DNA from: Globomyces pollinis-pini
Lineage: Eukaryota; Chytridiomycota; Chytridiomycetes; Rhizophydiales; Globomycetaceae
Length of the DNA stretch: 18,423 nt
Direction of reading: 5' to 3'
NCBI GenBank assembly: GCA_025399215.1
Contig: MU621420.1
Location: forward strand, 1 to 18,423
In this document: in pieces, positions 140 through 18,423 of the stretch
Numbering within the stretch: the stretch's first letter is position 1
How the letters are laid out: each line of letters begins with the position of its first letter
The notes under the pieces: generated by a model
The model's input: only the letters and a program-made list of their open reading frames with translations
The model's database searches: none
Told to the model about the DNA's origin: nothing
Position numbers and translations under genes: made by a program

Positions 140-569
140 ATGACTAATCCAACTGTCGATGATCTTTTAGTCTCTCTATTGTTACAAACGAAAGCGCGGT
201 ACAGTAGTATGATGGACTTGGCACAAATTAAAAAGAACAAGATGGTAATTCCATTTATTAATTATACAGTCTGCAAAAACTTTCGTTCGGTTGTTCGTGG
301 AATCCAATCCACAGTGTATTGCGCGGTTGAAGGAAGCTTTTAAACTGGAATATGAAGCGAATGAGTTACGTGTAGTGAATGAATTTATTACTCAGGTAAC
401 AAATATCAATGCATAATATGTTTAGGACAAACACAATGACTTTAAAGTCTTAAATGATCGAGTGGAACAATTAGAAACGCAATTACCTTGCATTCATGAA
501 ACATTGTACGAGCATGCGTATGCGATCAGCCAACTTGAAGATCCAGATACAAGCATGGTTTTCCCCTAA
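140..569 (+). CDS. Small hypothetical protein, 3 exons, 124 aa
   Basis: Exons are 140-244, 270-395 and 426-569, separated by introns of 25 nt (245-269) and 30 nt (396-425), both GTAA...AG. Splicing gives a 124-residue protein starting MTNPTVDDLLVSLLLQ and ending DPDTSMVFP with a TAA stop. Without splicing, both introns lead to stops. The middle and end (EAFKLEYEANELRVVNEF, then VLNDRVEQLETQL) are strongly helical and probably form a short coiled coil. I do not recognise a family. ATG 140 is the first ATG in frame, but an upstream exon in the window-edge frame cannot be excluded. It converges on the RING gene, leaving 113 bp between the two stops. Confidence 0.6.
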
Positions 570-682
570 GCGTAAATAAATGATCTGAGTTTAAGACACA
601 CCTTTTGGTAGATGGAAGTTTTTATTATTGAGTAACTTAAAATGTGCGAATAGATGAGAATAATAGTCTTAGAAATAGTTTA

Positions 683-1231
683 TTAAGACCATCTACGATA
701 TAGACGCATTTGTATCAAATCCATTTTTCGTCTTTCTAGCAATTCCTCTACTTCAATTGTCTTAAGTTGAAGAACAGATAATGCTTTGCATCCTTTTGCA
801 ATGTGGAGAGCTTTTGGAACTGGAGCTCTACAACTCGGACAAAGAGGTTGATATTCCAAAGCGCGGATCATACAATCTTCACAGCATATGAAGGAGCAGC
901 CAGCTTCGCATACTGAGATGTTCTGTGCCTTTAAGTATTCGAAGCAAATTGAGCATGCTCGAAAGAATAATTCATCTTCAAATACACAAATAGCTTTGTG
1001 GTCGTTGGTTCTGGTGAATAGCTGATCCTCTAAAGCTAAGTTAGCTAAATACCTTGGTTGGCAGTTTTGATCTACTTTTTGCATTTGTTGAACTAACATT
1101 GTATATGGCATTTTGATTGAAGATGCGTCGACAGCTACGCTTCTATGTTGCTGATATCCCCGAATCAAAGTCACTGCTTTCCATACCGTCTCGTGTCGCA
1201 AGGCCAGATCACTGATTCTGAGTTCATCCAT
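683..1231 (-). CDS. RING-type zinc finger protein (C4C4 variant), 182 aa
   Basis: Read from ATG 1231 to the stop at 683 this is a single-exon, 182-residue protein. A zinc-binding array sits at C93-x2-C96-x11-C108-x3-C112-x4-C117-x2-C120-x10-C131-x2-C134, ending in CPSCRAPVP, the usual close of a RING domain. No histidine is present, so all eight ligands are cysteine; this is the layout known from the CNOT4/NOT4 RING rather than classical C3HC4. RING domains normally recruit E2 enzymes, so an E3 ubiquitin ligase role is inferred. The N-terminal ~90 residues match nothing I recognise; the last ~25 (EVEELLERRKMDLIQMRLYRR) form a charged helix. The frame stays open upstream to 1441, but that stretch is AT-rich with a TA microsatellite, so ATG 1231 is preferred. 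An intron acceptor (TTACCTAG) just upstream means an additional 5' exon is possible. Confidence 0.75.
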   Translation of the reverse strand: MDELRISDLALRHETVWKAVTLIRGYQQHRSVAVDASSIKMPYTMLVQQMQKVDQNCQPRYLANLALEDQLFTRTNDHKAICVFEDELFFRACSICFEYLKAQNISVCEAGCSFICCEDCMIRALEYQPLCPSCRAPVPKALHIAKGCKALSVLQLKTIEVEELLERRKMDLIQMRLYRRWS

Positions 1232-1312
1232 TTGGAAAAATATCTCTAGGTAAGAATTGAAATTGAAGTAAAGAGAATTTATTTTAATAATTACATAGCC
1301 AGTAGAAATTAG

Positions 1313-1340
1313 AAACAAATATATATATATATTAATTTTA
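1313..1340. repeat. AT-rich low-complexity tract with TA run
   Basis: An AT-only stretch containing an uninterrupted (AT)n run near 1320-1332 lies between the RING start and the coiled-coil gene. It supports treating 1232-1450 as non-coding although one frame remains open through it. Confidence 0.7.
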
Positions 1341-1456
1341 TTTTGAGGTCTTGTAACTATTGAACCACTTTGTTCTTTCGTTATCAAAATGTCTCCAGAT
1401 GACACCGTAAAAGTACAAAATACTACTCTCTTATCCAACACTTGCTTGTATATCCA

Positions 1457-1924
1457 TCATCTTGGCTTGAGTTCATCAAGCTCAGCTTGAAGCATGCCAA
1501 TTGTTTGTTCACTGTCAATTGTGTAATATAAGATTGGTTTTCTTTCTCAAGAACATCAACTTCCACCTCCAATTCTTTGATTTTGACTTGTAAATCAGCT
1601 ACCATCTGTTCACTTGCACCAGTACTACTTTCATGTTGTGAATTTTCAATTTGTATTTGTGTTGACTCCAATTCTTTCTTTGCCTCTGATAACTCTTTTT
1701 CAATCGTTTGATTTTTCTCCAATGATCCAGTATGTTGTTCAGTCATATCTTCCAACTTTTGCTCAAGCTCCATGATAGCAACTCCTTGTCTATCCAAACT
1801 ATCAAACAACTCTTCACATTCTTTAGTATCTTTGAATAAGTTATTTTGATTTGCTTATAAGTTCTTCCATTCGTTTTACATCCCCTATACAGATTATAAA
1901 AAGTAAAACTTCAAATTTCTTCAT
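1457..1924 (-). pseudogene. Coiled-coil protein gene, apparently frameshifted
   Basis: The minus frame from about 1854 to 1516 encodes a clear heptad-repeat coiled coil rich in E, K, L and Q (for example MELEQKLEDMTEQHTG and KIKELEVEVDVLEKENQ). At its 3' end the coiled-coil pattern leaves this frame and continues in another one (SEQTIGMLQAELDELKPR, stop at 1457), while the original frame degrades into non-helical sequence and stops at 1423. No GT donor in the right phase explains the switch. At the 5' end the start is also uncertain: ATG 1924 (MKKFEVLLFII) can be joined by a 37-nt GT-AG intron (1891-1855), ATG 1870 needs a one-base shift in an A-run, and ATG 1773 needs nothing. The options are a decaying gene, a single-base assembly error, or an unusual intron. 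No specific function is assigned. Confidence 0.45.
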
Positions 1925-2473
1925 ACTTTCATTTTGAGATGCAAAGAAACAAAACGGCTGTCTTGACTGAACACCATAGTATAAGTGAGAAATTTAAAAA
2001 GTTTTTGAAGTCCATTATAGTGCCAGCATCATCTACCTACCAACTCCTGTCAGGTTCGAGTGGGAATCGAACCGGTGACATGAGCATGGTAGGACCGAAT
2101 CATTTGCCGTCCTCCCACCGGACATATAATTTTCTTTCAAAATTTACAATCTATTATGAACTGATAGTTTACGAATAAACATAATGAATATCTGAGTATT
2201 CCATAATATATCTGGGTAACAATAATAATATGTATGAATATATAAAATAACCTAACACAACTTTACTATATAGGTATAATATGATGATAAATTAATGTTC
2301 TAATAAATAGAAAACTCATTACTTGATTGTATATTTGTAGAGATGTGTTGGTTAAATAGAATACTTCGAACCAACTAGAACTTAAACAGTGCTTATTTAT
2401 ATGTAGTGTGACAGGACATGGTTTTCTTGAGACGCGTAATAGACTCTGATTCCAAATTATATTTTTGCCTTTC
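1925..2473. other. Intergenic region, no convincing gene
   Basis: Short open frames on both strands (1939-2178 plus, 2266-2475 minus) show no domain, no helix periodicity and no splice-linked extension, so I do not call them. The region holds the hairpin described separately and then a strongly AT-rich stretch (2160-2290) that presumably carries the GPCR promoter. Confidence 0.6.
2036..2093. repeat. 58-nt imperfect inverted repeat with pol III B-box-like core
   Basis: The arms are CCTACCA/TGGTAGG, CTC/GAG, TGTCA/TGACA and GGTTCGA/TCGAACC around a 7-nt loop (GTGGGAA), with only small mismatches and bulges. On the minus strand the centre reads GGTTCGATTCC, an exact match to the tRNA B-box consensus GGTTCGANTCC, and 20-30 nt upstream is an A-box-like CGGCAAATGATTCGG. 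A normal cloverleaf does not form: the 5' side of the T-stem does not pair with the 3' side. It could be a tRNA-derived element, a decayed tRNA half with an inverted copy, or a chance palindrome. Confidence 0.6.
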
Positions 2474-3478
2474 ATGGTTAACCTTATCGACTTTCCAGCA
2501 TTTCAAGCTCTTCAATTCCAGATATTATACATACAAATATTTGGTTCATTTATATCATTTCTTTTAAATATTTTGTGGATAAAATTGTTAATATCACATC
2601 AACGAGTCTTTGATTTATTTCCATACAGTGCTGCGGCAGCTGATACACTACGTTCAATCAGTAGCATAGTATTTGGATTAATACACGCAACGAATGGATC
2701 TTATTCTACTGGATTTGTTGGATGCCAGATTGATGGTTATATAACAATCACCACTGCGTCTATCTCAACAATGTCACTATTGTGTTTAATTTTGGATCCA
2801 TTACTGATAGTTGTTTTTAGGAAATCAAGATTGACTACTCAAATGAGAATGATGATTTTATCTAATTTATGGACTGGTATTCCGATACTTTCATTGATTC
2901 CAATTGTAACGGATGGTGCTAAATATCATATCCATCAAACTGGGACTTATTGTATGATATGTTTTACATGTTTACAGAATTATTGGAATGTGATTGTTGT
3001 GTATCTTACAATGGGAGGATTATTATCTGTCCCTATTGGTATGCTAATAACTTTTTCCTTGACTTATTACATTATAACCAAAAGAGCTAATTCTAGTGGT
3101 GGAGCAACTTCCGTTGAAGAAATTCAACGCGAATTGATTAAAAGGGGATTAACCATTACCATTTTTCACGCTTTAGCTTGGTTTCCTAGTTTGGCTGCAA
3201 TGATTTCAACAATGCATGGACATTATGATAGTCAATCAATGGTATATTTGGATATTGTTGCTCAATTAACTGGTATCTTTGCATTATCTATCAATCCCAT
3301 CATTTTCTTTTATTTGGAAGGTCATGCACTCAAAATGTTCAAGAAGTTTCAATTAAATTCAAGTTTTTATAAACTATCCTCAAAGAGCGTAAAAAGTTCC
3401 AAAGGATCAAATCAAGTGAATGTGTTTAATCCAAATACCACCGAAGATTTGGCCGTTACCAGAATTATTCCAAAATGA
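2474..3478 (+). CDS. Rhodopsin-like seven-transmembrane receptor (GPCR), 334 aa
   Basis: This intronless gene starts at ATG 2474 and encodes seven hydrophobic segments, roughly residues 13-40, 49-72, 84-112, 125-146, 170-202, 226-246 and 257-281. Class A signatures are present in degenerate form: C84 at the top of TM3 and C160 in the second extracellular loop (the usual disulphide), D108-P-L where DRY is expected, W133 in TM4, A235-W-F-P in TM6 (CWxP position), and N274-P-I-I-F-F-Y at the TM7 NPxxY site. No lysine lies six residues before N274, so it is not a retinal opsin. The cytoplasmic tail (about 285-334) is Ser/Lys-rich, as expected for a phosphorylated tail. Plasma-membrane signalling through a heterotrimeric G protein is inferred from the family; the ligand is unknown. 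It converges on the lipase gene, with 79 bp between stops. Confidence 0.8.
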   Translation: MVNLIDFPAFQALQFQILYIQIFGSFISFLLNILWIKLLISHQRVFDLFPYSAAAADTLRSISSIVFGLIHATNGSYSTGFVGCQIDGYITITTASISTMSLLCLILDPLLIVVFRKSRLTTQMRMMILSNLWTGIPILSLIPIVTDGAKYHIHQTGTYCMICFTCLQNYWNVIVVYLTMGGLLSVPIGMLITFSLTYYIITKRANSSGGATSVEEIQRELIKRGLTITIFHALAWFPSLAAMISTMHGHYDSQSMVYLDIVAQLTGIFALSINPIIFFYLEGHALKMFKKFQLNSSFYKLSSKSVKSSKGSNQVNVFNPNTTEDLAVTRIIPK

Positions 3479-3557
3479 ACATAATGAATGGGATACCATT
3501 AGAGAATTTTGAAATATAAAATAACAAAGAATAACTTGATGGAAATCTTTATTATAG

Positions 3558-4751
3558 CTATAAAATAAAAATCTCTTTAGCAAGGTATTGTAAAACATCA
3601 GAGTGAGTTCCATTAACACTTGGTCTACGTACAACTATAGCAGCATGAGAATTGAAAGCATTAATCTTCACATTAACTTTAATCCAATTCAATTGATTCA
3701 ATTGGAATATAATTTGCTTTCGGAGATTGGATTTTTCATCCTTGTGATTGATACTTTGACGGCCTTCTGGAATAACTTCCTCCCCTCCATCCGTTTCTTC
3801 CATTCCAACATCTTCATTTTCTATTTCCTTAGACATTGAGATATTCGTATCATAACTTTTTATCCAATCGTTTTGTAATTTAAGTTGAGATTGTTTGTAT
3901 CTTGCTGATAAAGCAAAATAACTTAGAATAGACGTCCCAATAGGTAACCAAATCGTCAATAAGATTGGCAAGTAAACAGCTTTAACATAATCTGAAGTAC
4001 TCCAGGGTATCGGTTCCTTTTCACGGGTAGTATCGACTTTAACAATGCTAGGATATTTTTCGTCAATGACTTGAGCTTCATATCGCCTAGAATGTAAACT
4101 ATCTATAAAATATACCTATAATCATTTATATATGATATTGAGCCAGTTGTATAACTGACTGAACGATCGTACTGAGTATTGGCAAAGCAAACACGTTGTT
4201 GAAATAATTCCAACCCTTTATAGAAATCATATTTTGGGCTAGATAAAACATCCAAGAGTGGTCGTTCATGTAAAAACCGATCGTTTAAGGTGAATTGATC
4301 ACCAACTCGAACCAAAAAAGTAGCTTGTAGAGAATTAAATACTCTGGTGGAAACTAAATGTGGAGGTTTTAAAGTACCCACATGAGGGGTAGCCAAAGAA
4401 ATGAATTGTATAGGTTTGACTTTCGAGAAGAATCCTTCCGAATATAATTTACCAATGGCATATCTGTAATGAGCTTTTATAAAATACATACCTTAAAATC
4501 AAACCACCTAAAGAGTAACCGATAAAAGATATCCTATCGACAGCAGGAATATCCACTAGAAACTGATGAATATCAGACACTACTCGTTGTCCACAAACGT
4601 CAATACCATCATATGTGAGTGAACCACTTGATGATTGAATATTTAAAAACAGCAATTGAGCATCTGAATGACAATCCTTTAAATGATTGATAACTGACTG
4701 CAAATGGTCAGGATTTCCCCAAAGTCCATGATGTAAAACCACTAAATGCAT
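3558..4751 (-). CDS. ROG1/LPL1-like serine esterase (DUF676 lipase), 3 exons, 378 aa
   Basis: Exons are 4751-4492, 4463-4116 and 4086-3558; introns are 28 nt (4464-4491) and 29 nt (4087-4115). The protein opens directly into the alpha/beta-hydrolase core (LVVLHHGLWGNP, the oxyanion loop), with the nucleophile elbow G-Y-S80-L-G-G and a C-terminal strand-turn with H364 in NGTHSDVL as the likely catalytic histidine; the first intron splits the codon two residues after the third GLIL strand. This order and length match the fungal DUF676 lipases (yeast ROG1 and LPL1 are relatives), which cleave acyl chains from mono- or phosphoglycerides. A hydrophobic segment around residues 240-262 (LPILLTIWLPIG) probably anchors it to a membrane or lipid droplet. 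An acidic linker near residues 285-305 follows. Its 5' end is divergent from the epimerase gene. Confidence 0.88.
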
Positions 4752-4869
4752 TTGTTTGGAGTGGAAAAATGACGGTGGAATTTCAATTTTACCATTGAAT
4801 AGGCTTTCAATTGAAGGGAACTTTGTACTTTGTCACTAAGATCCTTATAGATGTACTAAATCCAATACA

Positions 4870-4989
4870 ATGATGGTTTGGATACTGGATTTACTTGGTC
4901 CCATTACTTTGGTAACTTACCTAATTTTCAAGATTTTAATTAAACTCAAAGGGCTTTTAATTTCATTGTTTTGGATACAAATTCTTTGA
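4870..4989 (+). CDS. Short hydrophobic ORF just upstream of the epimerase (possible uORF), 39 aa
   Basis: ATG 4870 opens a 39-codon frame (MMVWILDLLGPITLV...) ending in TGA at 4987-4989, only two bases before the epimerase ATG at 4992. It is almost entirely hydrophobic apart from a few lysines, like one or two membrane helices. It may act as a translated upstream ORF, or may be chance in the AT-rich leader. There is no homology evidence. Confidence 0.25.
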   Translation: MMVWILDLLGPITLVTYLIFKILIKLKGLLISLFWIQIL

Positions 4990-4991
4990 AA

Positions 4992-6309
4992 ATGAAAGCA
5001 TCAGTACAACTAACACCACCAAAGAACTCTACTGGAGTCAGTCAAATCGTACATAATAATCAAGCATCAGAACCAATCACTGCATATTGTTTATCTAATG
5101 GTCCAACTACTGCTACTATCTTAAACTATGGTGCAACATTATCAAAGTTCACCATCAACAATATTGATGTTCTTTTAGGTTTCGATGATGTGTTTGATTA
5201 TACAAAATCTCATCCTATGTTTGGTGTCATTGTAGGTCGTACCTGTAATCGGTATCATACTTCAATAAATAACAATTCTATAGGTAACATTTCATATGTT
5301 TGATTATTACAGAATTGGAAATGGTCAGTTTGAATTAAATGGAACAACGTACAATTTACCTATAAATAATGGTCCTAATTCATTACATGGAGGACTTGTT
5401 GGTTTGGATAAACATTACTGGGATTCTAAAATCTTATCACAAAACCCACCTGCTGTTGTTTTTACTACTCAATCAAAGCACTTAGATCAAGGGTATCCAG
5501 GTACTAAATGTGAAAACTAATAAATGTATATAGGTACCAGATTTAAACTTACTAATCCCTATTAAGGAACCATTGAAGTGGCCATTACATATACTTTACT
5601 AAATGGTGATTTATCTATTGATGCTGTTGCGAAATTAATTGGCAACGAGGTTGATGAAACAGTCATCAATATTACATCTCATCCTTATTTTAATTTATCT
5701 GGAGGTATTTCACCTACAGTTGAAGATAATGAAATTCAATTCCATCACGTCACTGGTACTTTAAAAGTTAATTCTACTCAAATTCCAACTGGTGAAGTTT
5801 TGACAACCTCAACTAATCCGGAAATGTTCTTTAACGAACCAGCAACATTTGGAAGTCGGTTACCTTTAGTTCAACAATTTCGTGGTATTTGATTTTTCAC
5901 AATCAATATTAACAATCCAGGTATTCAATTACAATTTCTAACATTTTAAAAAAGGGTTTGATCATTTTTATCTAGTTGATTCACATTTACAAACTCAAAG
6001 TGGATGTGTATCGGTCAAAGATCCTCATACCAAAATTGAATTACGTGTTTTAACAGATGCATGTGGATTTCAATTATATACTGGTAATTGGTTAGAAAAC
6101 ATAACTTCAAAAAAATCACATCCTTGTGGAATATATAACAATTATTCTGGATTTTGTATTGGTAAAGTCTTTTAAAGATCACTTATTGGTTAGAACCATC
6201 TCAACCACCTGATGCAATCAATTTACCAGCTTTCCGTCAATCAGTGATATTAAAGAAAGGTGAAGAGTGGAAACAAAAAATCGTTTATCGTTTGTTACAA
6301 AATGAATAA
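4992..6309 (+). CDS. Aldose 1-epimerase (mutarotase), 362 aa, with tandem introns
   Basis: The enzyme interconverts alpha and beta anomers of hexoses such as galactose in the cytosol. Exons are 4992-5251, 5313-5500, 5567-5884, 5955-6161 and 6194-6309, totalling 1089 nt with consistent phases. Family motifs appear in order: N-Y-G-A-T-L near the N terminus, V-G-R-T-C-N-R then I-G-N-G-Q-F, N-S-L-H112-G-G, T-S-H188-P-Y-F-N-L-S-G (catalytic acid histidine), G-F-D-H, and G-F-C-I-E325-P-S-Q-P-P-D (catalytic base glutamate). The length fits the family (about 340-360). Three of the four gaps are 61, 66 and 70 nt and each splits at AG|GT into two minimal introns; removing only one member of any pair gives an early stop. 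The last gap is a single 32-nt intron (6162-6193). ATG 4992 gives the normal N terminus. Confidence 0.93.
5252..5312 (+). other. Tandem intron pair 1 of the epimerase (32+29 nt)
   Basis: Intron A is 5252-5283 (starts GTATCATAC, ends TCTATAG). Intron B is 5284-5312 (starts GTAACATTT, ends ATTACAG). Nothing lies between them. Joining 5251 to 5313 rebuilds the motif GRTCNR-IGNGQF. Removing only A gives CGG-TAA, an immediate stop. Confidence 0.85.
5501..5566 (+). other. Tandem intron pair 2 of the epimerase (33+33 nt)
   Basis: Intron A is 5501-5533 and intron B is 5534-5566; both start GTAC and both contain ACTAAT as a candidate branch site. Joining 5500 to 5567 gives QGYPG-TIEVAITY, the expected family reading. 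If either is kept the frame hits a stop. Confidence 0.85.
5885..5954 (+). other. Tandem intron pair 3 of the epimerase (36+34 nt)
   Basis: Intron A is 5885-5920 (ends AACAATCCAG) and intron B is 5921-5954 (contains TTCTAAC, ends AAAAAAG); both start GTATT. Joining 5884 to 5955 gives QQFRG-FDHFYLVD, which contains the family's G-x-D-H. Removing only A leaves a stop inside B. Confidence 0.83.
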
Positions 6310-6426
6310 AATCATACAATTTATTCACACTTGGTTTATATCTCAACTTTTGAGCAGTTTTATGTTATCCGAGTTTTTCAATATACAAAATATTACTAGG
6401 ATGCTTATTGTATCTATTTAGAATTA

Positions 6427-7971
6427 TCATTTAACAGTTTGTATAAACTTTCTATAGATATACACGAATGCAAGTATAATCATGATTCGTTTACTACAAC
6501 GTCGCGATATTAATAATGCCATCCATTCTTGAATCCATTTCCAAAAAGAATTTGTATTTTTTTGTATTTCAGAAACATATTTTGGTTTCTGGTTCTTTAT
6601 TTCATTGCTGATGGTTTCTTTTGAGGTGATAGTTTCAATCTTTGGTTGAGTGATTGCTTGTTTAGATGTTTGTACAACTGTTTCTGTTTCTATTAAATCA
6701 ACTTCATTCCCAATATATGACATTTTCAAATTGGAAAGGTTTGAAAAGGATTTGGTTCGTTTGGCGATTTTGCTTAAAGAAGTAGAACTTAACGTTCTCG
6801 TAAAGCCAGTTCCAGTCATGACAGATTGTGAATATAATATGGATTGTAAATCTGCTGCTGATCGAACTCTTGGAGGTAGATCTTTTGCATTATAATATAC
6901 ATCTCCTTCGTATTGGTAACCATCATCTGAATATGAAATTGGACTCGCTCTATTAAATTCAGCGGAAAGTAAGGAGGGTTTAGAAGATGGTACTCCATAT
7001 GATTGAATAATGGGACAAATTGCTGGTGATATTGGATATAATGTATCTAATCCGCCGTACACTAACAGTTTAACTAAAAATTAATTTACTTGTGGGTATA
7101 TTGTCTATTGGTATAAAATTGATCATGTCTTCTGTGCTAATAAATTGCAGTTTGCCTTTTGCTTCTGTAGACATAGCCGTCCTTAATACTCCCCAAATAC
7201 CAGCATGTAACCAACCGTAATTCAAGACAATTGCCTGACCAATCAACTGAGGGTATTGATTTCGAAATATTTCATATATAAGAGGTATTAAACTATAATC
7301 CTGATATATGAGAATCAAAAACAATACCATGTTAGAAACGCCAAAATCTTTCAAATCTACTACAACCAGAGCTTGTGATGTGAGTTCATCATGAGAGTCC
7401 TTGTCCTTGTGTAATGCATAAACCCATCTCCTTAAAATTTCAAGACAAAAAACAACCTAAAGGTACGAATAAACAACAATCAAATTACCGTTTTTTGAAT
7501 GATTTGAGTTGCATTTTCTACATTTGGATTATAGAGATTTGGTTGAACATAAATGACAGGTCTCCCATTCAAATCCAATTTAAAAAACCTAAATAGACCA
7601 TTTTCCAAGTGTTTTAAAATATCTGGATCTATAGTATTGATATCTAATGAATAGATATGATGATTTATTCTCCAGTCAATATGACCACTAAACAACGTTA
7701 TAGACTCATCAAATACATGATATGAGATACTGTTTGTTGTAAATCAAACTTGTTTTTCTTCAAGAATCGAAATAAGAGAGCTTTTTGATTAGCAATTGAA
7801 TTACAAAAATACATTCATCTCGTACTATATCCTGACAATCTCTGAAATTAACAGCTAGTGAAATCTGTTGAGTTTCTTGCAAGGTAGAGTTCAGACAGTC
7901 TTGTAGATTTTTAACTCCATTCATTGATTTCAAAGGTTGATCAAAATGAAGCAAGAAATTCTCATCAAATT
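6427..7971 (-). CDS. CRAL-TRIO (Sec14-like) lipid-binding protein with C-terminal membrane anchor; 5' end unresolved
   Basis: Supported exons are 7971-7813, 7780-7717, 7687-7489, 7456-7328, 7300-7090 and 7061-6427, with introns of 32, 29, 32, 27 and 28 nt; phases agree throughout and give at least 464 residues. The CRAL-TRIO N-terminal helix pair is seen in DESLLFRFLKKNKFDLQQTV, and the lipid-binding domain in NGRPVIYVQPNLYNP, VVVDLKDFGVSNM, IFRNQYPQLIGQAIVLN and GKLQFISTEDMINFIP. After it comes a Ser/Thr-rich linker and a final hydrophobic helix (IMIILAFVYIYRKF) with flanking basics, so it is probably tail-anchored to ER or another organelle membrane. Family members move or present phosphoinositides and other lipids between membranes. 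The first coding exon or exons, between about 7972 and 8213, could not be joined uniquely; the best start candidate is ATG 8213 (MPGTSFSSMTHY). It converges on the epimerase (117 bp gap). Confidence 0.85.
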
Positions 7972-8283
7972 CTTACACTAAAAACAACAGACAAGAAGAC
8001 TATGGAACTCAGATTAACGTCACTTGATAGGTTGTTGGATACTCATACTTACTATTGGATGTTAGTTTCTCCAAATTTCCAATTCAATCATTGTCAATTG
8101 ATCGACCTACCTTACGAGAATATCAACAAAATCAAACAAAAAACTATCAATTCAATGTTAGATGTGGGTCCATTGCAATAATGAGTCATGGAACTAAAAG
8201 ATGTACCTGGCATTAGCGTGGATACTTGACCATATCAAACAACAGTTCCCTTCCATACATTATTTTTAAAGTTCATACCAACA
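7972..8283. other. Divergent region between CRAL-TRIO gene and kinase; holds the unresolved 5' exon(s)
   Basis: On the minus strand ATG 8213 opens MPGTSFSSMTHYCNGPTSN..., and several strong donors (GTAAG at two places, GTAGG, GTTTG) and acceptors follow before the acceptor TGTAAG that must precede exon 7971. More than one combination of tiny introns keeps the frame, so I do not choose. An 85-codon plus-strand frame here (7924-8181) has no ATG at its start and no domain, and is treated as chance. The kinase promoter must also lie here. Confidence 0.45.
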
Positions 8284-9795
8284 ATGTCTCATGTCCAAAA
8301 TCCCTCGAATGAAGGAGGAAAAAAGAGTCGAAGAGGAAGTACAATTGTTGAATCATTTGGAGCATTATTAAATAGGTCAAGTAGTAATGCAAATCAAAAA
8401 CCAAGAAGTTCTATGGGTTCGTTACCTCATATTGAGGTACCTAAACAACAGAGTCGTCGTGGGTCAACAATTTCTTCAGTTACACCACAACCATCTTTAA
8501 AATCAGACATATCTTCCAAATCCATCAAAAACATTAAATCTTTTAGAAGTGGAAGTGTTGGTCCAGTAGAAGAAAGTCTTGATTCTTCCAATTACAAATC
8601 AAAGGATCATAATGAACCTGTGAGATCTAGACGTCAATCGGATGTTAAATTAGAAATGTTGAAAACAAAACAACAACTTGAAGATAAATATGAAATGCCG
8701 AAATATGAATTAGGAAGTCAAGATTATCTGGCACCAGGAGAAACATTATCGTTAAATGATTTCAAATTGATTAAATTAATTGGTAAAGGTGGATTTGCAA
8801 AAGTATATCAATCAGTTCGGAAAATGGATCATCGAATCTTTGCCATTAAAGTCATGAGAAAGGATCAATTGAGACAAACTAAACAAGTAATTTTAAATGA
8901 TAATTAATCAACATTAGTCGGCACATATCATGAATGAAAAATCAATTTTACAATCTTCAAGAGGAGAGAATTTCATTGTACAACTGTTGGGAACCTTTCA
9001 AGATGATATTCATTTATATATGGTACAAGAATTTCTTTCTGGTGGTGATTTATTTGGATATATCAAATTACATGGAGTAAATATTTGATTATTATTTATA
9101 ATTAGCATTTATCTGAAGTTCATTCCAAATTTTATGCTGCTGAAATATTACTTGGATTAGAATTTTTACATGAAAAGGGAATTGTCTATCGAGATTTAAA
9201 ACCAGAAAATATTTTATTTGATAATCATGGACATATTAAAATAGCAGATTTAGGATTTGCAAAACAATTAAATGGAGGTTATACAACAACATTTTGTGGA
9301 ACACCTTCTTATTTAGCACCAGAAGTGATTTTAAGAAAACCTTATAATATGATGGTAGATTGGTGGACTTTTGGAGTCATTTGTTTTCAACTTTGTTCAG
9401 GTTGTTCACCTTTTCAAGAATCAACTCCACCAAAAACTTTTTCTAGAATCATTCATGCTAATATTCGTTGGCCACCTGAACCTCAATTATATTTCTCAAA
9501 TGATGTCTTTGATTTAATCATGAGATTATTTGAAATCAATCCAAAGGAAAGGTTAAATGGAAATTTGATCAAATCTCATGAATGGTTTCAAGATATTGAT
9601 TTTCATGATTTAAATTTACGAAAAATCACTCCTCCACATATTGTTCATACTAATGTTAGGAGAAGATCGATTTCATTGGATCCAAATGCACCTACGGAAT
9701 TACGAAGAGCATCTACAATATTACCAGATCACACTGAACTAAGTGCTGGAGAAATTCCTACCCGGTCCACAAATAATCTATTTGAAGGTTTTTGA
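8284..9795 (+). CDS. AGC-family Ser/Thr kinase, PKA-catalytic-like, 3 exons, 483 aa
   Basis: Exons are 8284-8886, 8918-9076 and 9106-9795; introns are 31 nt (8887-8917) and 29 nt (9077-9105). Residues 1-159 are a Ser/Arg-rich disordered extension. The kinase domain starts at F160, with GKGGFAKV (glycine loop), FAIK189 (ATP lysine), YRD284LKPEN (catalytic loop), D302-L-G-F-A-K (magnesium motif, L instead of F), TFCGTPSYLAPEV (activation segment in AGC form) and DWWTFGV. The GFAK wording and a chain ending in F-E-G-F (a terminal FxxF as in PKA catalytic subunits) place it near PKA/PKG. There is no cyclic-nucleotide domain. Arg-directed sites recur in the extension (RRGST twice, RRQS) and tail (RRRS442, LRRAS457T), which suggests autophosphorylation or autoinhibition. 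It likely acts in the cytosol on basic Ser/Thr sites. Confidence 0.92.
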
Positions 9796-9915
9796 TAATA
9801 ATATAAGAATGTTTAAATACCAATTGCTATTGTCTCATTACATTGACTTCCATAAAATGCGTTTGGGTATCTCATGTTGTTTAGGCAAAGAGTTGTGTAG
9901 AAAAACATTTATTTT

Positions 9916-11594
9916 TTATGGGATGACAATAGCAGCAACTTCATGTAGATAAGTAGCCAACAACTTGATTCCTTCCACATAATTACTACGATCCAATTTT
10001 TCATTAATGGAGTGAGCTCCATCATCCACACGACCCATTGGTAATAAAAGAACACTTTTTTGTAAAGCATCTTGGAAAGTTATGGTTACAGGAATAGAAC
10101 CACCCTAATTGTTATTGGAAAAAATTGAAATTACTTCTCTGGTAAGATCTGGTTTGACTTTGAAAACCTTTTCAATAGCTTTGGTGGCAGCAGTAAAGTT
10201 CCAGTTGGTAACATCTGCAACCCACCATTTACCTTCATGATCACAGGTAATGCTCATGGTGTTTTTAGAACCTAATTTGGCAAATTCAGATTTGACATAA
10301 TCATAGACAAGTTGAGTAATTTCCTTTGGATCTTGATTTGGGACAGTTCTAATTGAGAATTTTCCAATTACTTTAGCTGGGATAACAGTTTTCGCACCGG
10401 AAGCATAAAAGGCCCCTTCAATACCGTGCAAAGAAAGAGATGGGTATCTCCATCTAGCCATAAGAGTGTCCTTTTCGTTATCATGAATAGTCACAGTAGC
10501 CTCAATGGCATCGTAAACATCTTTCATGTTAAAGTCCATTGTATCATAAATTTTCAATTCAGGGTCTATGTGTTAATAAAAGAGTCATACCAGTCACTGG
10601 AGCAACAGAATTCATCAATCCAGGGACAAGAATTTTGCCATCCGGAGTGGACAATTTTTGAAGGACATGAATCAGGTCGGTCATAGGTTCATGAACTACA
10701 CCACCAAATAAACCTAATTCATAAGTTTGATGAGATTCTACCAGAATGTAAATCCTTTCCAGGACCATTGATAGCCAAGTGAAAGTAAGAAACTCCACGT
10801 AGACCGTAGGTCAAACAAGGTTTAGTTGTTCCAAGCCAATAATTATCGGAAATACATACACAGTCAACATCCTTGAAATATTTATCGGCTTCAGCACGGA
10901 TTAAATCATCTAATCCCTCACTACCAGATTCTAAATAATTAATTAATGTCAATTTTCACCTTCCATTCTAATATTATCAGTTTTTATAAACAAAATTTAC
11001 CCTTCAAAGCACATTTTCAAGTTAACTGGTAAATCAATACCAAGTTTTTGATGGATTTCAATAACCCATAACCAAGAAATGACTGGCCCTTTATCATCGG
11101 TACTACCACGACCAAACATACGACCTTGATCATCTTCAACGAGTGTGAATGGGTCCGTATTCCAACCATCAGATAGTAATGCAGGTTGTACATCATAATG
11201 ACCATAAACTAAAACTGTTTTCTTTTTTGGGTCAGATCCATAATGAGCTAACACCACTGGTGGTAGGTCAATAACTTGACCTTCCAAAGTTTGTTTTCCA
11301 ACATTTCTCATTGACACCCTACCATTAACAAAGAGAGTGAATACCTAAGATGAGAAGATAGAATTCAAGTACCTAAAGAGTTAATTGAAGGCAAGATCAA
11401 TACGTAGCACCCAAACGAGTCAATTCCTTTTCCAACCATTGACCCATTCTAACGACTTAAGATTAGATACTATTAAAAGAACCTTCAGGACGATGTTCGA
11501 CAGTTCCACTGACACTTGGAATAGCGACTACTTCAGCTAATTTCTTTACGTAATCATCTTGATGTTTATCCACGAATTCACTAAATTTGTCCAT
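9916..11594 (-). CDS. DUG1: Cys-Gly metallodipeptidase (M20 family), 473 aa, 8 coding exons plus an 8-nt microexon
   Basis: Exons are 11594-11483, 11455-11404, 11318-11001, 10967-10960, 10930-10742, 10713-10591, 10565-10135 and 10104-9916, totalling 1422 nt with consistent phases. The family (yeast Dug1, animal CNDP2, about 475-480 aa) hydrolyses Cys-Gly in glutathione breakdown, using two metal ions in the cytosol. Motifs: N-terminal [10 protein letters not shown]95YD (metal), GRGSTD129D130KGP (bridging Asp), E160GME163E164SGSEG (catalytic and metal glutamates), [24 protein letters not shown] and [10 protein letters not shown] near the end (metal His). Introns are 27 nt; a 31+28+26 triplet; 33 and 29 nt around the microexon; then 28, 25 and 30 nt. 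The first intron starts with the unusual donor GTTCTT. It converges on the kinase gene (120 bp) and diverges from the small gene at 11808. Confidence 0.95.
10960..10967 (-). other. 8-nt microexon in the DUG1-like gene
   Basis: AATGGAAG lies between a 33-nt intron (11000-10968) and a 29-nt intron (10959-10931). It supplies the last base of G161, all of M162 and E163, and the first base of E164, completing the family motif FEG-ME-ESGSEG. Skipping it would remove the catalytic glutamate and shift the frame. Confidence 0.88.
11319..11403 (-). other. Triple tandem intron in the DUG1-like gene (31+28+26 nt)
   Basis: Three GT...AG segments follow each other with no exon between: 11403-11373 (GTATTGATC to CTCTTTAG), 11372-11345 (GTACTTGAA to ATCTTAG) and 11344-11319 (GTATTCACT to ATGGTAG). 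Joining 11404 to 11318 gives [16 protein letters not shown], the family reading. Removing only the first two leaves a frameshift and a TGA. Confidence 0.87.
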
Positions 11595-11807
11595 TAAAAA
11601 ATCCAAAAGCTCATCGAATGAAAATTACAAAAAGTAACCTCCTGATGTTACACTAGCAGCAACACAATATGAACTTAGTAACAACTGTTTGAATGAGTAC
11701 CTTATGTGTAGCTATGAGTACCTAGTGTGTATCTATCTATATCGTATTGTGAGTATCTGTTTGTATCGTATTGATAGCAACTGTTACGAATTGTTTACCC
11801 TTTTCCA
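11595..11807. promoter_or_regulatory. Divergent promoter region of the DUG1-like gene and the small gene at 11808
   Basis: This 213-bp gap separates two divergently read genes, so it must hold both promoters. It contains the degenerate 21-nt tandem repeat listed separately. I see no clear TATA or other named box. Confidence 0.5.
11695..11771. repeat. Degenerate 21-nt direct repeats
   Basis: Units are 11695-11715 and 11716-11736 (adjacent; share GAGTACCT, GTGTA and CTAT), and 11751-11771 (GAGTATCTG...TATCGTAT). Between units two and three, TATCGTATTG also recurs, at 11739-11748 and 11764-11773. The sites lie between two divergent genes. Confidence 0.65.
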
Positions 11808-12243
11808 ATGAATTCCATGAAATTGTTGGATATTTTCAAATGCCATCAAATCAATTCATTCATTCAAGATCCCATTCATGAAAATTCATCCTTTGCTTTA
11901 AATCCAATTGGTTCTTACAGTACATTAACAATTAGGTTCAAAGTTTTCAAAACCATTGCTAGTCATTCGTTATTCAAATAAATTACAATGTGCTCAATTT
12001 ACCGAATCAGCTTATGATAAAGATTATGATCCTATCATTGAATGGATCATTAATGGAAATACTTTGGAATTAGTTTCAATTTATCGTTGGCATCAAGGTT
12101 TATTAACTGTTGGAAAAAATATAAAGAAATCAGATGCAGATGATTTTGTTGATAATTGGATACTGGATTTGTTGGAAAGAGGTTACAATGATCCATTGGA
12201 AGCTGAACTCGAATGGTTTTCAAAACCAAAATCAAAACTATAG
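11808..12243 (+). CDS. Small hypothetical protein, 127 aa, probable tandem intron pair
   Basis: Exon 1 is 11808-11910 and exon 2 is 11963-12243. The 52-nt gap splits into 25 nt (11911-11935, donor GTTCTT) and 27 nt (11936-11962, donor GTTCAA), each ending in TAG; joining restores frame as SFALNPI-VIRYSNKL. The resulting protein starts MNSMKLLDIF and ends FSKPKSKL. The second exon is well-formed coding sequence (IIEWIINGNTLELVSIYRW, then DADDFVDNWILDLLERG) with no signal peptide or membrane segment; it looks like a small acidic alpha/beta protein. I do not recognise the family. An alternative single 43-nt intron (donor GTACAT at 11920) also keeps frame but would be longer than every other intron here. 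It converges on MFS carrier 1 (58 bp gap). Confidence 0.6.
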
Positions 12244-12301
12244 TTCATTACAACAATAAATATCAATCGATGTTCTAATATTAAAAAGAATTCTTTATTA
12301 T

Positions 12302-13836
12302 TTATTGGCGAATATCTCTAGCGCGTTTAATATACAGTAGAATGTTTCCAAAAACAGCAATACCACACAAAATTGTAGAAATCAAAAAGGTATCATAATA
12401 GCATTTAGCTCCTTTACAAATCGATGTTCCGGCAGATTCGTAAACCTGTCCAAAGAGGGATGAGAAAAATTGTCCACCAAATGCAGGTATCACAGTCATC
12501 CAACCCCTTTGTATTAAAATTAAAGAATGTATTACCAATTTTTAGCAAAATTCCTTAATCCAAAATATTCTCCAACTAGAATTGGAATGGCAGTCCACAT
12601 GGCACCAAATCCCCAACCAATCAAGATGGTGACAATATCCAATTGTTCAATATGTTGTATATACAAAGTATACATGCAACCAGCAGTCATCAATACTGCA
12701 GCTACAATTGGCCAAACTGTTCGTACTATTCCAAAAGAAGTGGCCCCAAAATCAGATATAAGGCTTAAAACAACACCAGATACAAAAGAATGAATTGAAA
12801 ATGTCTGTACATGACTTTTTTGAATTGCTTGAACAAAAGAGTCTTTGGCGGTCAATTCTGGTGGTAGAATTGCAATAACTAACATTAGCGATGAATCAAA
12901 ACTTACCAACAGCACCAAGATTATTGATATGCATCAATCCAACTCCAATCACAGCAAACATATTGTAACCCAACAAAACGGAATTCCATGAAGGAAAACA
13001 AGCTGTTTCTTTTGATTGTTGTCGCGTTTCAGGTTCCTCAATATCCAAATCCACAGACATTATTGGCATCAATTGAGGATCATCAAGCAAATATCTTTGC
13101 TCCTGGATTGAATCGCATAAACGTTGACATTCTGGATCAATAAATTCTTCTTCTTGATCATATGGTTTCAAAAATACAAACAAAATCAAGTTTAATACAA
13201 ATCCAAAAGTTCCAAGAAAGAACAAATAATCATTGACTCTCAACACATTATCAGTCATAAAGAAAATGGAACCAAGAGTTGCAAAAAAGTAGGCACTTAA
13301 ACCAAAGAAACCAACAGAGAAACCAACAGCGATTGAACGATATTTCTCGGGCCAGTTTCGATAGTTGGTTGCCAAGGAACAATGGTATGTAGCAGCACTA
13401 AAAATAATGAATCTACGTGAAAAAGTACCTTCCCAGTCCAATCAACAAGAAATAAAAAGCTAATATGAGATAATGAGGTTTGGGAAGGGATCCATCAAAG
13501 GTCAAACTGGTAACATAATAACCAGTAAATATTCCAGAACCACCCATTAAAAAGAATGCCCAAGTTAAATCTGGATAACGATCCACCAAGGAACCAAACA
13601 ACGGCCCACCAATAAAAACCCCAGCATTTCCACAACTACAAGATCAATACTATAGTCAAGTTACGAAGCAATAAAAGCAGTTTCTGATTGAGTCAGATCA
13701 AGGAAATAAGACATTTGAGGCCTAAGATTAAACAAGCTTCTTGATACCCAAATAAAGAAAAGGTATAAGCAGATCCGGCCGTCAACATAGCGATCGACGC
13801 TAGCGTTTGACTTAGAAATAATTTAAAAAATGACAT
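12302..13836 (-). CDS. Major facilitator superfamily transporter, MCH1/nodulin-like, 463 aa (carrier 1)
   Basis: Exons are 13836-13748, 13721-13665, 13635-13429, 13397-12907, 12878-12536 and 12506-12302; introns are 26, 29, 31, 28 and 29 nt. The protein has about 12 hydrophobic segments in two halves split by an acidic central loop (DQEEEFIDPECQRLCDS onwards). Recognisable pieces are the N-terminal SLSQTLASIAMLTAGSAY, GGPLFGSLVDRYPDL (the loop 2-3 MFS signature with D and R), NWPEKYRSIAVGFSVGFFG, and ILVGEYFGLRNFAKNWGWM near the C terminus. This fits the MCH1/nodulin-like MFS branch, whose fungal members are called monocarboxylate transporter-like but mostly have unknown substrates. Its paralogue at 16541 has the same intron positions. 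No signal for a particular membrane is visible. Confidence 0.9.
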
Positions 13837-14480
13837 GATTTCAATGGTCAAGTTTTCCGTTTAAAAATCAAATTTGTTATCAACAAACATGTGACTGGAT
13901 GAAACCATCAACAGATTGGTTGCGATTTCATAAAATCACGATGAAATGATAATGGAAGGTATTTGAATGATTGTTATTTGTTTGTTGTTCATTTGGTAAT
14001 TTCCAAAATAATTTATTGAATTGGTCTGTTTGAAAAATCACGTTAAATCATACTGAACAATGAGTTCACTACCTTTTAATACTATTTAAATCCTTCACTG
14101 CTACTTGAATGCATTCACTCTGTGCATCTTTATCTCGTTGTAAGTTGGTATCAAACCATGTGGAAGTCTTTAAGAATCATGTGATCACGTCCCCCAATTT
14201 ATCCTGTCCCCAAATTCAAAAATATCTGTGATGTTGATTGATGATGAGCACTGAACTTGTTGATTCTAACCAAGCTCATTTTCAAAGGGCAAAATCATTC
14301 ATCAATGCTATACGTTCAATTTAATCCCCGCTTCTATTATCAGCCCTGAGTTGTCACGCCTTCAATTCCTTATCAAGTAACTGTACCCTTTAAAACGATG
14401 CCCGTATCACGTTATACATTATCTATTTATTATCTCACTTTAATACTAGTCACACTACTCATTCCAAAAAATACACACAA
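13837..14480. promoter_or_regulatory. 644-bp intergenic region upstream of MFS carrier 1
   Basis: I see no coding frame of note on either strand. The region holds ATCACGT at 14037-14043, 14184-14190 and 14406-14412, and ATCACG at 13935-13940, plus a C-rich patch near 14190. It is upstream of carrier 1 and downstream of the Ser-rich gene, so promoter elements are plausible but unproven. Confidence 0.4.
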
Positions 14481-16447
14481 CTACCAAAACGAATCTAAGG
14501 TATGGGCATCCACTTCCTCCAAAATTAATTCAACATCATCTATTTGACTTTTCTTGAACTGGAATTCATTGGACTGTGATGGTTTCGATGTATTCATACC
14601 ATCTATTGTAAACAGATTATTGATTTACCAAATACAGGATATATTGGGATATCAGAGAGCGATGGGAATATCAGATTGGGTTCTTGTGGTATCAAATCAT
14701 TAGTATGAATATCAATCTCTGGAGGTTGTATATTCGTTCCAAACATGTCCATTTCAATGGAATGTGTTGTTACGGAACTATCATGTAAAGTGACACTTGA
14801 TGTATCCAAAATCGCTCGTTGATCAATCACTAGTAAAATAAGTATATAAAATCTTACTTGAAGAATCCGATGTACAAAAATAATTATTTTCTAGAAATAA
14901 TGGTATAGGTGTGGAATTATAATTCATTTCCAACGGATTTTGAATATAGAGATGACTTTGATTCATATTCTTCAATGAAAAACAAGAAATGGTAAACCAT
15001 TTAGAAAAATGAGAATGTAATATTTCGGGTATAAACAATTCTACAGGTTGGTTGGCAATCACCTTTATACATGTATCCATAAATATTTCCAATGATGAAG
15101 TGCATGTAAATAAATATCGATAAACTCCCTCTTTCACCAATTCAAGAAATTCACGGGTAACCATGGATTCGTAACCCGGGTATATCTTGTGTATCATATC
15201 CAACCATCGAATCAATACAATCCCAGATCCAAGAGTCCATTTTAATAACAATCGGTCATTAATATATGGTATTGTTGAACATCCTCTTGCCATCATCCGT
15301 TCCATCTCTGTAACTGAATAATACTTCCAATCGTCTGAATACTTTATAAATTGATCATAAAACGATTCAATAAAAAAATCATGGTATATTTTTGGTAAAT
15401 AATGATGTTCCAATGGTTTCGTTTTCCTCTTTGTGATTTTTGTAATATTTTGTAATCCGTAATGTAACGGAAATGTAGTTAAATTATACCTTTTAACAAA
15501 GGTATTCAGAAATTTTAAATGGACAGGTCCATATTGAAAGTTGGGGTATTTTTTTCGTATCAAGGTCAACCAAAAATCGGAATCTTCTAATTCAACGAAT
15601 TCTAGGTAATCACATACACATATATTTTCTAAGTATGTTAGATAATCGTAATGTTACCAAACAAAGCCAATTGAAAATCACGTTTTGGATATTCAATGGA
15701 AGTTGGATGAAATCCTAAACTCGTTGATTTTTTCTTCCTTCGTTCTTTATCCAATTTTTTGTTATCAACATTTGTCTTTTTATTTTTGTTGCGTGATGGT
15801 TTTTCAATCTCAGAGTTTCCCATAGATAGTTTATCTTCATTAAAGTCACTATCTTTTGCTAATACAAATGGGAAACTGGAGACCAAAGAATTTGTGGATC
15901 TCGGTTTGATAATTCGTTGAGCTCGACTGGTTTTAGTTGGTTGAATTGTATTTTTTGGTCTCTTTGAACTTCTCGATCGTGAATTGGTAGATTGACTACT
16001 AAATGACAAGTTTTCTGACACTGATAAATCAGTGGTAGAGATAGATGACGTAGAGATAGAAACTGAATCATCCAAGTGAATATCATTAATTAGTTTGGTA
16101 TTTGGGGTTGCTTCCGTTGCAACAAAAAATGCGTGAGGGGAAGGACGTACTGGAGCTGTTATAATACTACTACCAGATAAACGTTTAATTGAATGACTCT
16201 GTTTGACTGATGAATTTGAAATGGAGTCAGAGTGAGAACTCGAAGAATCTGTTAATGAATCATTCTGATCCGACATTCCATCCCCTTCTTTTGACCCACT
16301 TTCATAACCGGATGCGTCATCATCATCTGTATCGGAATCTGAATCAGTGGATTGATTCTCATACATTTTCTGTTGTCCATTTTGAGTTCCCAAATAGAAA
16401 ATCGCATTACCCTTCAGATTCTTTAGGTTCCTAGTCTTCTTTCGCAT
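14481..16447 (-). CDS. Ser-rich, likely nuclear protein of unknown function, 4 exons, 627 aa
   Basis: Exons are 16447-15658, 15628-14858, 14829-14629 and 14602-14481; introns are 29, 28 and 26 nt, and the total of 1884 nt is in frame to a TAG. Residues 1-20 are basic (MRKKTRNLKNLKGNAIF). A Ser/Asp stretch follows (STDSDSDTDDDDASGYESG), then a long Ser/Thr-rich linker and a Lys/Arg cluster (KNKKTNVDNKKLDKERRKKK) that looks like a nuclear localisation signal. Residues about 264-520 are compact and rich in Tyr, Phe, Trp and Leu (SDFWLTLIRKKYPNFQYG onwards) and resemble a folded helical domain I cannot name. The tail is acidic and ends LILEEVDAHTLDSFW. A chromatin or transcription role would fit the composition but is only a guess. 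Its start is 93 bp from the divergent start of MFS carrier 2. Confidence 0.8.
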
Positions 16448-16540
16448 GGTCCTCTCCGCTTTTCTGAATTTTTTTGTCCAACTTGATTTCGTTGATCAAA
16501 CTTCATTTGTCATCATTTTTTCTTTGTTTTTGGATTTCAA
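16448..16540. promoter_or_regulatory. Short divergent promoter between the Ser-rich gene and MFS carrier 2
   Basis: Only 93 bp separate two divergent start codons. The plus strand is T-rich (runs at 16468-16474 and 16516-16533). No named element is visible. Confidence 0.5.
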
Positions 16541-18118
16541 ATGTCGATTGCTCAACTCTCACTCAGTCAGACTCTAGCGTCTGTTACGATGTTGACTGCT
16601 GGAACTGCTTATGCATTTTCTCTTTATGGGTATCGTTTTTATAATGGTTTGATTATAGTCCTCAATTATCTACTCTCTTTCACTTATCCCAATCAGAAAC
16701 TGCCTTTGTCGCTTCGTTTGTCATTTAGTAGTTGTTGATTGTAATAGTTGTGGAAATGCTGGTGTTTTTATTGGTGGACCTATAAGTGGAACTTTGGTAG
16801 ATCGGTTCCCAAATTTCGCATACTTGTTTTTCTTAGTTGGTGGATTAAGTATTTTTACTGGATATCAGTTGGTCAGTCATACTGTTAGTGGATTATTACC
16901 TCGTCCTCACTATTTGGTGCTGGCCCTTTATTTTTTCATCATTGGATTGGGAAGGTGATCATCGTTTCTTTAACTTTCAGTTCGGCAAACTATCATTGTT
17001 CTTTAGCTACAAATTATAGAAATTGGCCTGCTTCATACAGATCCATTGCAGTGGGAACATCTGTGGGATTTTTCGGTCTAAGTGCATTTTTCTTTGCTAC
17101 CGTTGGATCACAATTTTTCATAGTCAATCAAGTCCTTCAAGTAGAGCAATTCTTATCATTCTTGGGAGGATTTTGTTTGATAATCAGTCTATTATCAGCA
17201 TTACTATTAAAACCCATTCAAACTAAAATAGAAATTATAGTAGATAACGTTAGTACAGAAAGTACACCTTTTTTACACGCCACTGAACATGAATCAGAGT
17301 ATGTTGAAGAGCGAGAAGAAGGCGAAACGAGCTCAATCACATCTCGTGGATATATTTCCACACCTGTAGATGATTTAGAATATTCAATATGTGATGAACG
17401 AATTGAATTAGATGATATTTCATGTTTTCCATCAATCAATGCATTTCTTTTAGCATACAACATGTTTGCAATTATTGGTGTTGGACTAATGTATCTCAAT
17501 AATGTTGGAGCTATTTGTAACAATTTCATTCTGATATCTAGTGATTTCTCTGTTACCAACGGATATGGATTCAAGCCATCCAAGTGTTCAAGTGATGCAA
17601 AAGAGTCACGTCCAGTTATTGTCATTACTTTCATTTGCATCAAGGGTTCTGATTGGAATCCTATCTGATGTATGTGCCTCTTCCATTGGATTGCCTAGAA
17701 CATTTTGGCCTATTACTGGAGCACTATTGATGGTTATCGGCTGTGGGATGATGCTTTATATCAAGAATGCCGACCTTTTGTATGTTGTTTCTGTCATCAT
17801 TGGCAGTGCATATGGTACAATTTGGTCCGCAGTTCCAATTCTGGTTGGAGAATATTTTGGATTGAAGAATTTCGCCAAAAATTGGTAAATTTGTACTTTT
17901 AACTTTATTAAAGGGGATGGATGACTGTTATGCCTGCATTTGGTGGTTACCTGTTTGCAACAATTTTTGGAGCCGTGTATGAAGAATCAGGTGTTTCTGT
18001 TTGTAAGGGACAAAACTGTTACATGAAAAGTTTCATTATAGCTACTGTATTGTCACTTCTAGCACTTTTTGGAAATATTTTCTTGTATTTTAAACGATAT
18101 CGTGAAACCCGTGTTTAG
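16541..18118 (+). CDS. Major facilitator superfamily transporter, MCH1/nodulin-like, 478 aa (carrier 2)
   Basis: Exons are 16541-16629, 16659-16715, 16748-16954, 16981-17516, 17542-17884 and 17914-18118; introns are 29, 32, 26, 25 and 29 nt. The sequence parallels carrier 1 throughout: SLSQTLASVTMLTAGTAY, CGNAGVFIGGPISGTLVDR, NYHCSLATNYRNWPASYR, SVGFFGLSAFFFATVGSQFF and ILVGEYFGLKNFAKNWGWM. Exon lengths 89, 57, 207, 343 and 205 are identical to carrier 1; only exon 4 differs (536 versus 491), because its acidic Ser/Thr/Glu-rich central cytoplasmic loop is 15 residues longer. Intron 2 uses the weak donor GTTTGT and intron 3 GTGATC. About 12 membrane segments are expected; the substrate is unknown. 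Confidence 0.9.
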
Positions 18119-18423
18119 ACTCTATCATTACTAGATAATTATATGAATATATGATATAATGTTACAGTTTTGTACTTGTAGTTGTACACATTAGTACATA
18201 TGTACTTGAGTTCGATTAAATAGCTGAATTCACTGAGTGTATAAGCATTATTGAACCATTACATAGTTATAATTTGATTATTGGATTATAATACCGAAAT
18301 ATACTATTGGTTGATATTGGTGTTTCGGAGAGTGGATGAACTAAATTACTACAGAACGAATAAAACATTTGTGTTGTACGTCGTGATACTATATTGATTT
18401 TCTGTAATTGTTGAATAAAGAAG
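18119..18423. other. 3' flank of MFS carrier 2, no gene seen
   Basis: AT-rich sequence with no coding frame. It has several GTAC-containing words (TTGTACTTG, TTGTACAC) and a perfect 14-bp palindrome AGTACATATGTACT at 18193-18206. Confidence 0.5.

Follow-up and report, generated by a model that had tools for sequence, protein, structure and literature searches.

Head-to-tail chains of putative minimal introns in Globomyces pollinis-pini, including a three-unit chain in a DUG1-like gene

INTRODUCTION

In recursive splicing, very long introns are split by AG|GT zero-length exons and removed stepwise (PMC5126111), while fungal stwintrons are nested, with an inner intron interrupting a splice element of the outer one (PMC9024468, PMC8469720, PMC7138796). 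Tandem duplication or repeat expansion has been described as a source of new introns in the potato RdRp gene (PMC4974935), Cryptococcus CNN00420 (PMC2395259), and fission yeast SPOG_01682 (PMC3629103). These accounts and the comparisons drawn from them follow excerpts of the cited papers.

In this study, we examined a DUG1-like gene of Globomyces pollinis-pini in which an 85-nt gap in the coding sequence appears to consist of three complete, minimal U2-type spliceosomal introns lying head to tail. Judged from sequence features, this reading has a probability of roughly three in four, a figure that jointly covers growth of the chain by duplication and its removal unit by unit. The chain is probably one of several hundred chains of two to six units in this genome. 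Like recursive splice sites, the joints consist of AG|GT with nothing in between; unlike the excerpted description of recursive splicing, the host here measures 52 to 162 nt and holds up to six minimal introns of about 24 to 39 nt, each unit has the size of a single intron, and the arrays look partly duplicated. In both the chains and stwintrons, at least two U2 introns share a gene position, with more than one excision, which stwintrons need and which is presumed here, but the chain units abut at AG|GT, with no element interrupted and no order forced. As in the tandem-duplication cases, local copying would make introns, neighbours can be near-identical, and the repeats carry proto-splice sites. 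Those cases, as excerpted, comprise one or two genes each, with repeats that include exon or an intron that spans several repeats, whereas here the exon-free intron itself forms the repeat unit, and the number of such loci is estimated at several hundred. Nearest in look are the fission yeast introns made of 24-nt repeats (PMC3629103). Genomes full of very short introns also occur in the ciliates Stentor and Paramecium, for which the openings of the abstracts contain no end-to-end chains. The literature covered, which lacks most subscription papers and all preprints, yielded no description of complete introns chained in this way across a genome, and this is weak evidence of absence. By this comparison, the joints resemble recursive splice sites and the growth would resemble tandem-duplication gain, a combination that we did not meet at this scale in the literature covered.

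MATERIALS AND METHODS

The window analyzed here is the whole of contig C331 (positions 1 to 18423; 18,423 nt) from a genome of 18.55 Mb in 459 contigs. A sample of 240 kb was taken from ten long contigs; it contained 13,366 nt of N, leaving 226,634 nt outside the window. Genes were called with a semi-Markov gene finder, trained on the sample plus the window and uncalibrated against any annotated gene set. Chains in the sample were accepted only if the posterior of each unit exceeded 0.8. Fifteen further loci were picked, not sampled, and chains there were called at a laxer posterior (0.4). The homology search covered six of the nine chains outside the window, all but C1+14785, C1+42529, and C7+15671, the last being a chain that was not retained as a whole in the Viterbi path; among the picked loci, L030 and L042 were outside this search, and L032, L037, and L044 had no listed protein.

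RESULTS

The preliminary description of this stretch had claimed that the 85-nt gap at 11319 to 11403 splits exactly into GT..AG|GT..AG|GT..AG with 31 + 28 + 26 nt and that all three parts have to be excised. The letters of the minus strand (11403 to 11319) bear out the split, and removal of the 85 nt restores a conserved protein that aligns across the joint (Table 1). With the remaining introns of 27, 33, 29, 28, 25, and 30 nt also taken out, the spliced 473-aa product aligns to structures of cytosolic non-specific dipeptidase and DUG1, and the joint is free of gaps in both alignments printed. A GenBank protein of Globomyces sp. JEL0801, with 98% identity over 87% of the length, has the identical 12 residues at the joint; the next named matches are from Terramyces and Entophlyctis, both chytrids. 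A gene finder run blind to chains called the 85-nt gap with a posterior of 0.97, and in dinucleotide shuffles of the gap a full split into 22- to 40-nt units has a probability of 0.002.

Table 1 Coordinates of the two genes and their chain units in the window
Feature	Position	Strand	Remarks
DUG1-like Cys-Gly metallodipeptidase gene	9916..11594	-	473 aa once spliced
DUG1 chain unit 1	11373..11403	-	31 nt; branch motif TTAACT, A 9 nt from 3' end
DUG1 chain unit 2	11345..11372	-	28 nt; branch motif CTCATC
DUG1 chain unit 3	11319..11344	-	26 nt; branch motif TTAATG
Aldose 1-epimerase gene	4992..6309	+	three chains and one single intron (6162-6193, 32 nt)
Epimerase chain 1 unit 1	5252..5283	+	32 nt; weak branch motif ATAACA, 1.7 bits
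Epimerase chain 1 unit 2	5284..5312	+	29 nt
Epimerase chain 2 unit 1	5501..5533	+	33 nt
Epimerase chain 2 unit 2	5534..5566	+	33 nt
Epimerase chain 3 unit 1	5885..5920	+	36 nt
Epimerase chain 3 unit 2	5921..5954	+	34 nt

Elsewhere in the same gene, an 8-nt exon (AATGGAAG; 10960 to 10967, minus strand) is flanked by introns of 33 and 29 nt. The JEL0801 GenBank protein lacks MEESGS, the residues around this exon, as well as the C terminus. Upstream of the gene, at 11640 to 11800, repeats with GTACTCAT motifs and AG|GT joints were considered as a further chain; the stretch (about 11700 to 11780) was not counted because its pieces measure 16 to 21 nt by eye, below the intron range found here. Scans of the window with Rfam, at the gathering threshold, and for tRNAs gave no matches.

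Three further chains, missed by the preliminary description, are located in an aldose 1-epimerase gene of the window, where gaps of 61, 66, and 70 nt equal 32 + 29, 33 + 33, and 36 + 34 nt. The spliced product aligns to aldose 1-epimerase 1snz across each of the three joints; the alignment has a gap of one residue a few positions ahead of the third. When paralogs were sought for a comparison of chain lengths, the gene itself was the sole match. More than one chain per gene was seen in this gene (5252 to 5954) and at L031, L030, and L039, and a gamma-tubulin gene has two, which suggests that chains cluster by gene. Also in the window, at 12300 to 13840 (minus strand) and 16540 to 18120 (plus strand), lies a transporter-like gene pair, related by eye, with single introns of 26/29, 29/32, 31/26, and 29/29 nt at seemingly matching places; this pair may serve as a yardstick for intron turnover.

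Analysis of the sample plus the window with the chain-blind finder yielded 329 gaps (posterior >0.9, coding flanks), with a length peak at 24 to 32 nt and a mode of 28 nt. Permitting zero-length exons raised the log-likelihood by 127 nats; with the window left out, the gain was 93.8 nats, or 81.0 nats without the exonic splice-site positions. A total of 13 chains were obtained, four in the window and nine outside, of which seven have two units and two each have three, four, and five units. Outside the window, zero-length exons numbered 20, compared with five exons of 1 to 10 nt and ten of 11 to 20 nt (19, 7, and 14, respectively, without exonic splice-site positions). Scaled up from the nine outside chains (538 gap loci, 226,634 nt), the whole genome would hold 737 chains (Poisson range, 337 to 1398). 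Chains found span 52 to 162 nt overall.

Gaps of at least 46 nt called by the chain-blind finder (posterior >0.8) split fully into 22- to 40-nt GT..AG units in 6 of 26 cases, against 0.55 expected from dinucleotide shuffles (P = 1.1e-6). Since the finding itself came from the window, the fair figure is the one outside it, where 3 of 22 long gaps split against 0.35 expected (P = 0.0021). In the survey of gaps above 45 nt for AG|GT splits that had been proposed earlier, run here on the sample and the window, these six were split and the other 20 were not. The latter, of 48 to 151 nt, rule out a hard size limit, which the preliminary description had placed near 36 nt, although some of the unsplit calls are probably wrong (at 16955 in the window, 65 nt were called where the chain model gives 26 nt), so that 20 is an upper bound. 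A branch score of at least 4 bits was found in 7 of the 20 (70 to 131 nt). The unsplit gaps form a thin second class beside the introns of 24 to 36 nt.

In the whole genome, the pattern GTAT..TAG|GTAT..TAG with both parts of 24 to 34 nt has 191 matches. Size controls gave 25 (44 to 54 nt twice), 56 (24 to 34 nt, then 44 to 54 nt), and 24 matches (11 to 21 nt twice), some of these control matches being three-unit chains themselves. The respective controls with backward patterns gave 87, 72, 66, and 85 matches; as the backward words differ in sequence, we relied on the comparison between sizes. An initial wide-spaced pattern search (393 matches, 549 in its backward control) was uninformative, and size-matched counts were used in its place.

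Chance, or an artefact of the gene finder or the assembly, is a negligible explanation for the chains in our judgment. In its favor, the exonic terms of the splice-site matrices favor AG|GT, and without them one of the nine outside chains was lost, one of the eight that recurred was shortened, and two new ones appeared. In a V-ATPase c gene (L043), moreover, coding sequence was assigned to an intron in the Viterbi path, so that the predicted protein is wrong at the chain, and this joint was read by eye. Against it stand the excess of full splits among the chain-blind calls, inside and outside the window, the joints backed by homology in many genes, and the differing sequences of the units of most chains, which are therefore not assembly copies. 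For DUG1, aldose 1-epimerase, Rab8, and gamma-tubulin, protein alignment ruled out chance or an artefact. Five of the nine sample chains outside the window have their joint within a domain or structure that was matched (Rab8, kinase, M48, KAP, and MutS II), and the C2+6657 chain protein had no Pfam match. Among the picked loci, gamma-tubulin (with both of its joints), M16, Dopey, epimerase, and Hikeshi have the joint within a match, which is not the case for a short-chain dehydrogenase gene on contig C68 (joint at residue 1), a WD protein (L040), L039, and L041.

Several chains stand out. In the sample, Rab8 has a five-unit chain of 32 + 31 + 35 + 28 + 34 = 160 nt, and the spliced protein aligns to Rab8A without gaps, with the joint at residue 79; a protein kinase gene has five units (25 + 27 + 29 + 28 + 29 nt) within the matched kinase domain. 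Among the picked loci, gamma-tubulin carries chains of 29 + 24 + 26 + 29 and 26 + 26 nt, over whose joints the spliced protein aligned gap-free to 8va2, and the Dopey gene has three units, two of them nearly identical. The dehydrogenase gene holds six 27-nt units (162 nt), in which Tandem Repeats Finder reported a 27-nt repeat with 5.4 copies and 86% matches; this array directly follows ATGG, so homology offers no proof of its removal. At the same locus (L038, C68:14801-17200; positions 1077 to 1250), the first array unit and the exon after the array both start with GTAAAAGA, as seen by eye, as if the array had grown from a copy of exon sequence, which is the sole hint of such copying. In the V-ATPase proteolipid gene (L043, C198:20401-21900; 683 to 706, minus strand), a GTATCG..CTAG stretch after a three-unit chain mimics a 24-nt unit; it encodes GIVGVYGLV, presumably a conserved part of the V-ATPase proteolipid.

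Each unit carries the signals of a complete intron. All 38 units in the 13 chains have GT..AG ends, by construction, as the finder requires them. A YTNAY branch motif with its A 7 to 12 nt before the 3' end is present in 274 of 309 single introns. In a second count, YTNAY occurred in 245 of the 309 single introns, compared with 22 of the 25 sample-chain units that are not last and 37 of the 40 such units at the picked loci. The branch score of the 25 non-last sample units was 5.01 bits, compared with 2.18 (standard deviation, 0.57) in their own shuffles, none of 2000 of which reached it, although the test partly depends on the finder, in which the motif is partly covered by the acceptor matrix (-8 to -3) and the order-2 content. 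Last units scored 4.70 bits and the 309 single introns 4.60 bits; the 40 non-last units of the picked loci reached 5.08, versus 2.50 in shuffles. Inner donors (0.60 versus 0.23; p = 0.56) and acceptors (0.62 versus 0.17; p = 0.45) are no weaker than the outermost sites, which every model must use. Relative to single introns, chain units have weaker donors (0.47 versus 1.36 bits; p = 2e-4) and acceptors (0.46 versus 1.25; p = 0.0035) and are slightly longer (30.2 versus 28.5 nt). The earlier claim that the minimal introns lie side by side and are not nested agrees with units that have donor, branch motif, and acceptor and with the recurrence of chains in the genome.

Unit-by-unit excision is the most likely mode of removal on these signals. 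Each unit would be recognized across itself and excised singly, and pairing the GT of any unit with its own AG or with that of a unit farther downstream would take out a whole number of units, so that either a valid chain of fewer units or the completed joint would be left. Because every GT-AG pairing would leave a valid chain, all orders of splicing would give the same mRNA, and array length should consequently be near neutral. Alternatively, the first GT might be joined to the last AG, with the whole chain removed in one step and the internal AG|GT sites left as unused relics. This rather unlikely alternative would yield an identical product, and the unsplit gaps of 48 to 151 nt, seven with branch scores of at least 4 bits, speak for it, so that on size an 85-nt excision in one step could occur. 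A single intron would, however, need the last branch site only, and relics should decay, whereas the branch motifs of inner units are at full strength even though most neighbors are no longer similar, and the inner donors and acceptors show no loss of strength relative to the outer ones. Furthermore, chains of up to 162 nt (six units) contrast with confident introns that peak at 24 to 32 nt.

With regard to the origin of the chains, similarity was examined in 97 neighboring unit pairs from the genome-wide GTAT..TAG pattern matches, in which pairs within one array are not independent. The 99th percentile of cross-locus pairs was exceeded by 21 of the 97, and the 99.9th by 10, from eight loci and including three pairs of the C68 array. 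Of 25 adjacent pairs in the unselected sample, only one lay above the 99th similarity percentile, although the distribution was shifted (p = 1.6e-4). Duplication is thus directly visible in a minority of chains only. When 20,000 pairs were drawn at random from the 309 single introns of the sample, none scored 12 or more, and the top score of 11.0 equaled the maximum of shuffled introns. As neighbors are related in a minority of cases and the sampled single introns lack families, copying seems to be local, with most copies old enough to have diverged.

The context AG|..|G, one of five flank contexts tested, surrounds 11 of 32 chains (19 of them from picked loci at a posterior of 0.4) and 37 of 309 single introns (p = 0.0019); G after the chain alone gave p = 0.0021 and G before it p = 0.18. 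Such AG|G at both intron ends could supply microhomology that places a breakpoint exactly at AG|GT, and slippage or unequal exchange between these ends would duplicate exactly GT..AG. A chain would then lengthen as entire introns are duplicated in tandem at the site, with the intron acting as the repeat unit of a minisatellite. The flank enrichment might also point to mobile, introner-like introns that inserted next to a resident intron, at the AG|G joint. We regard this as very improbable, as no dispersed families were found among the 20,000 single-intron pairs, in the sample only, while neighbors within chains are related.

It is also conceivable, though unlikely, that a long intron acquired internal AG|GT and branch sites and was thereby split into several. 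Long unsplit introns are present as possible precursors, and a similar route was proposed for Lipomyces stwintrons in the excerpted text (PMC7138796). Splitting does not, however, account for the clear minority of related neighbors, which extends up to near-identical arrays, and chains of five and six units at a regular spacing of 25 to 35 nt would need many coordinated gains. Local duplication of whole introns is the reading that we prefer to both of these.

DISCUSSION

Taken together, we lean, at better than even odds, toward intron satellites: introns would multiply in place as units of a minisatellite, their copies would stay full introns since each starts with GT and ends with AG, and the length of the array would drift almost freely.

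Intron positions are usually taken to contain a single intron each, but here hundreds of positions, by extrapolation, would hold two to six with no exon between them. For gene prediction such genomes are difficult, as exemplified by the incomplete GenBank DUG1 protein of Globomyces sp. JEL0801. The chains offer a natural test of how the spliceosome handles adjacent tiny introns and a system in which recursive splicing could be studied in the absence of long introns. Moreover, they offer a testable route of intron multiplication, as some arrays are near-identical repeats and may differ in length between strains. If intron satellites hold true, this chytrid would be undergoing ongoing intron gain across its genome, with up to six introns per gene position.
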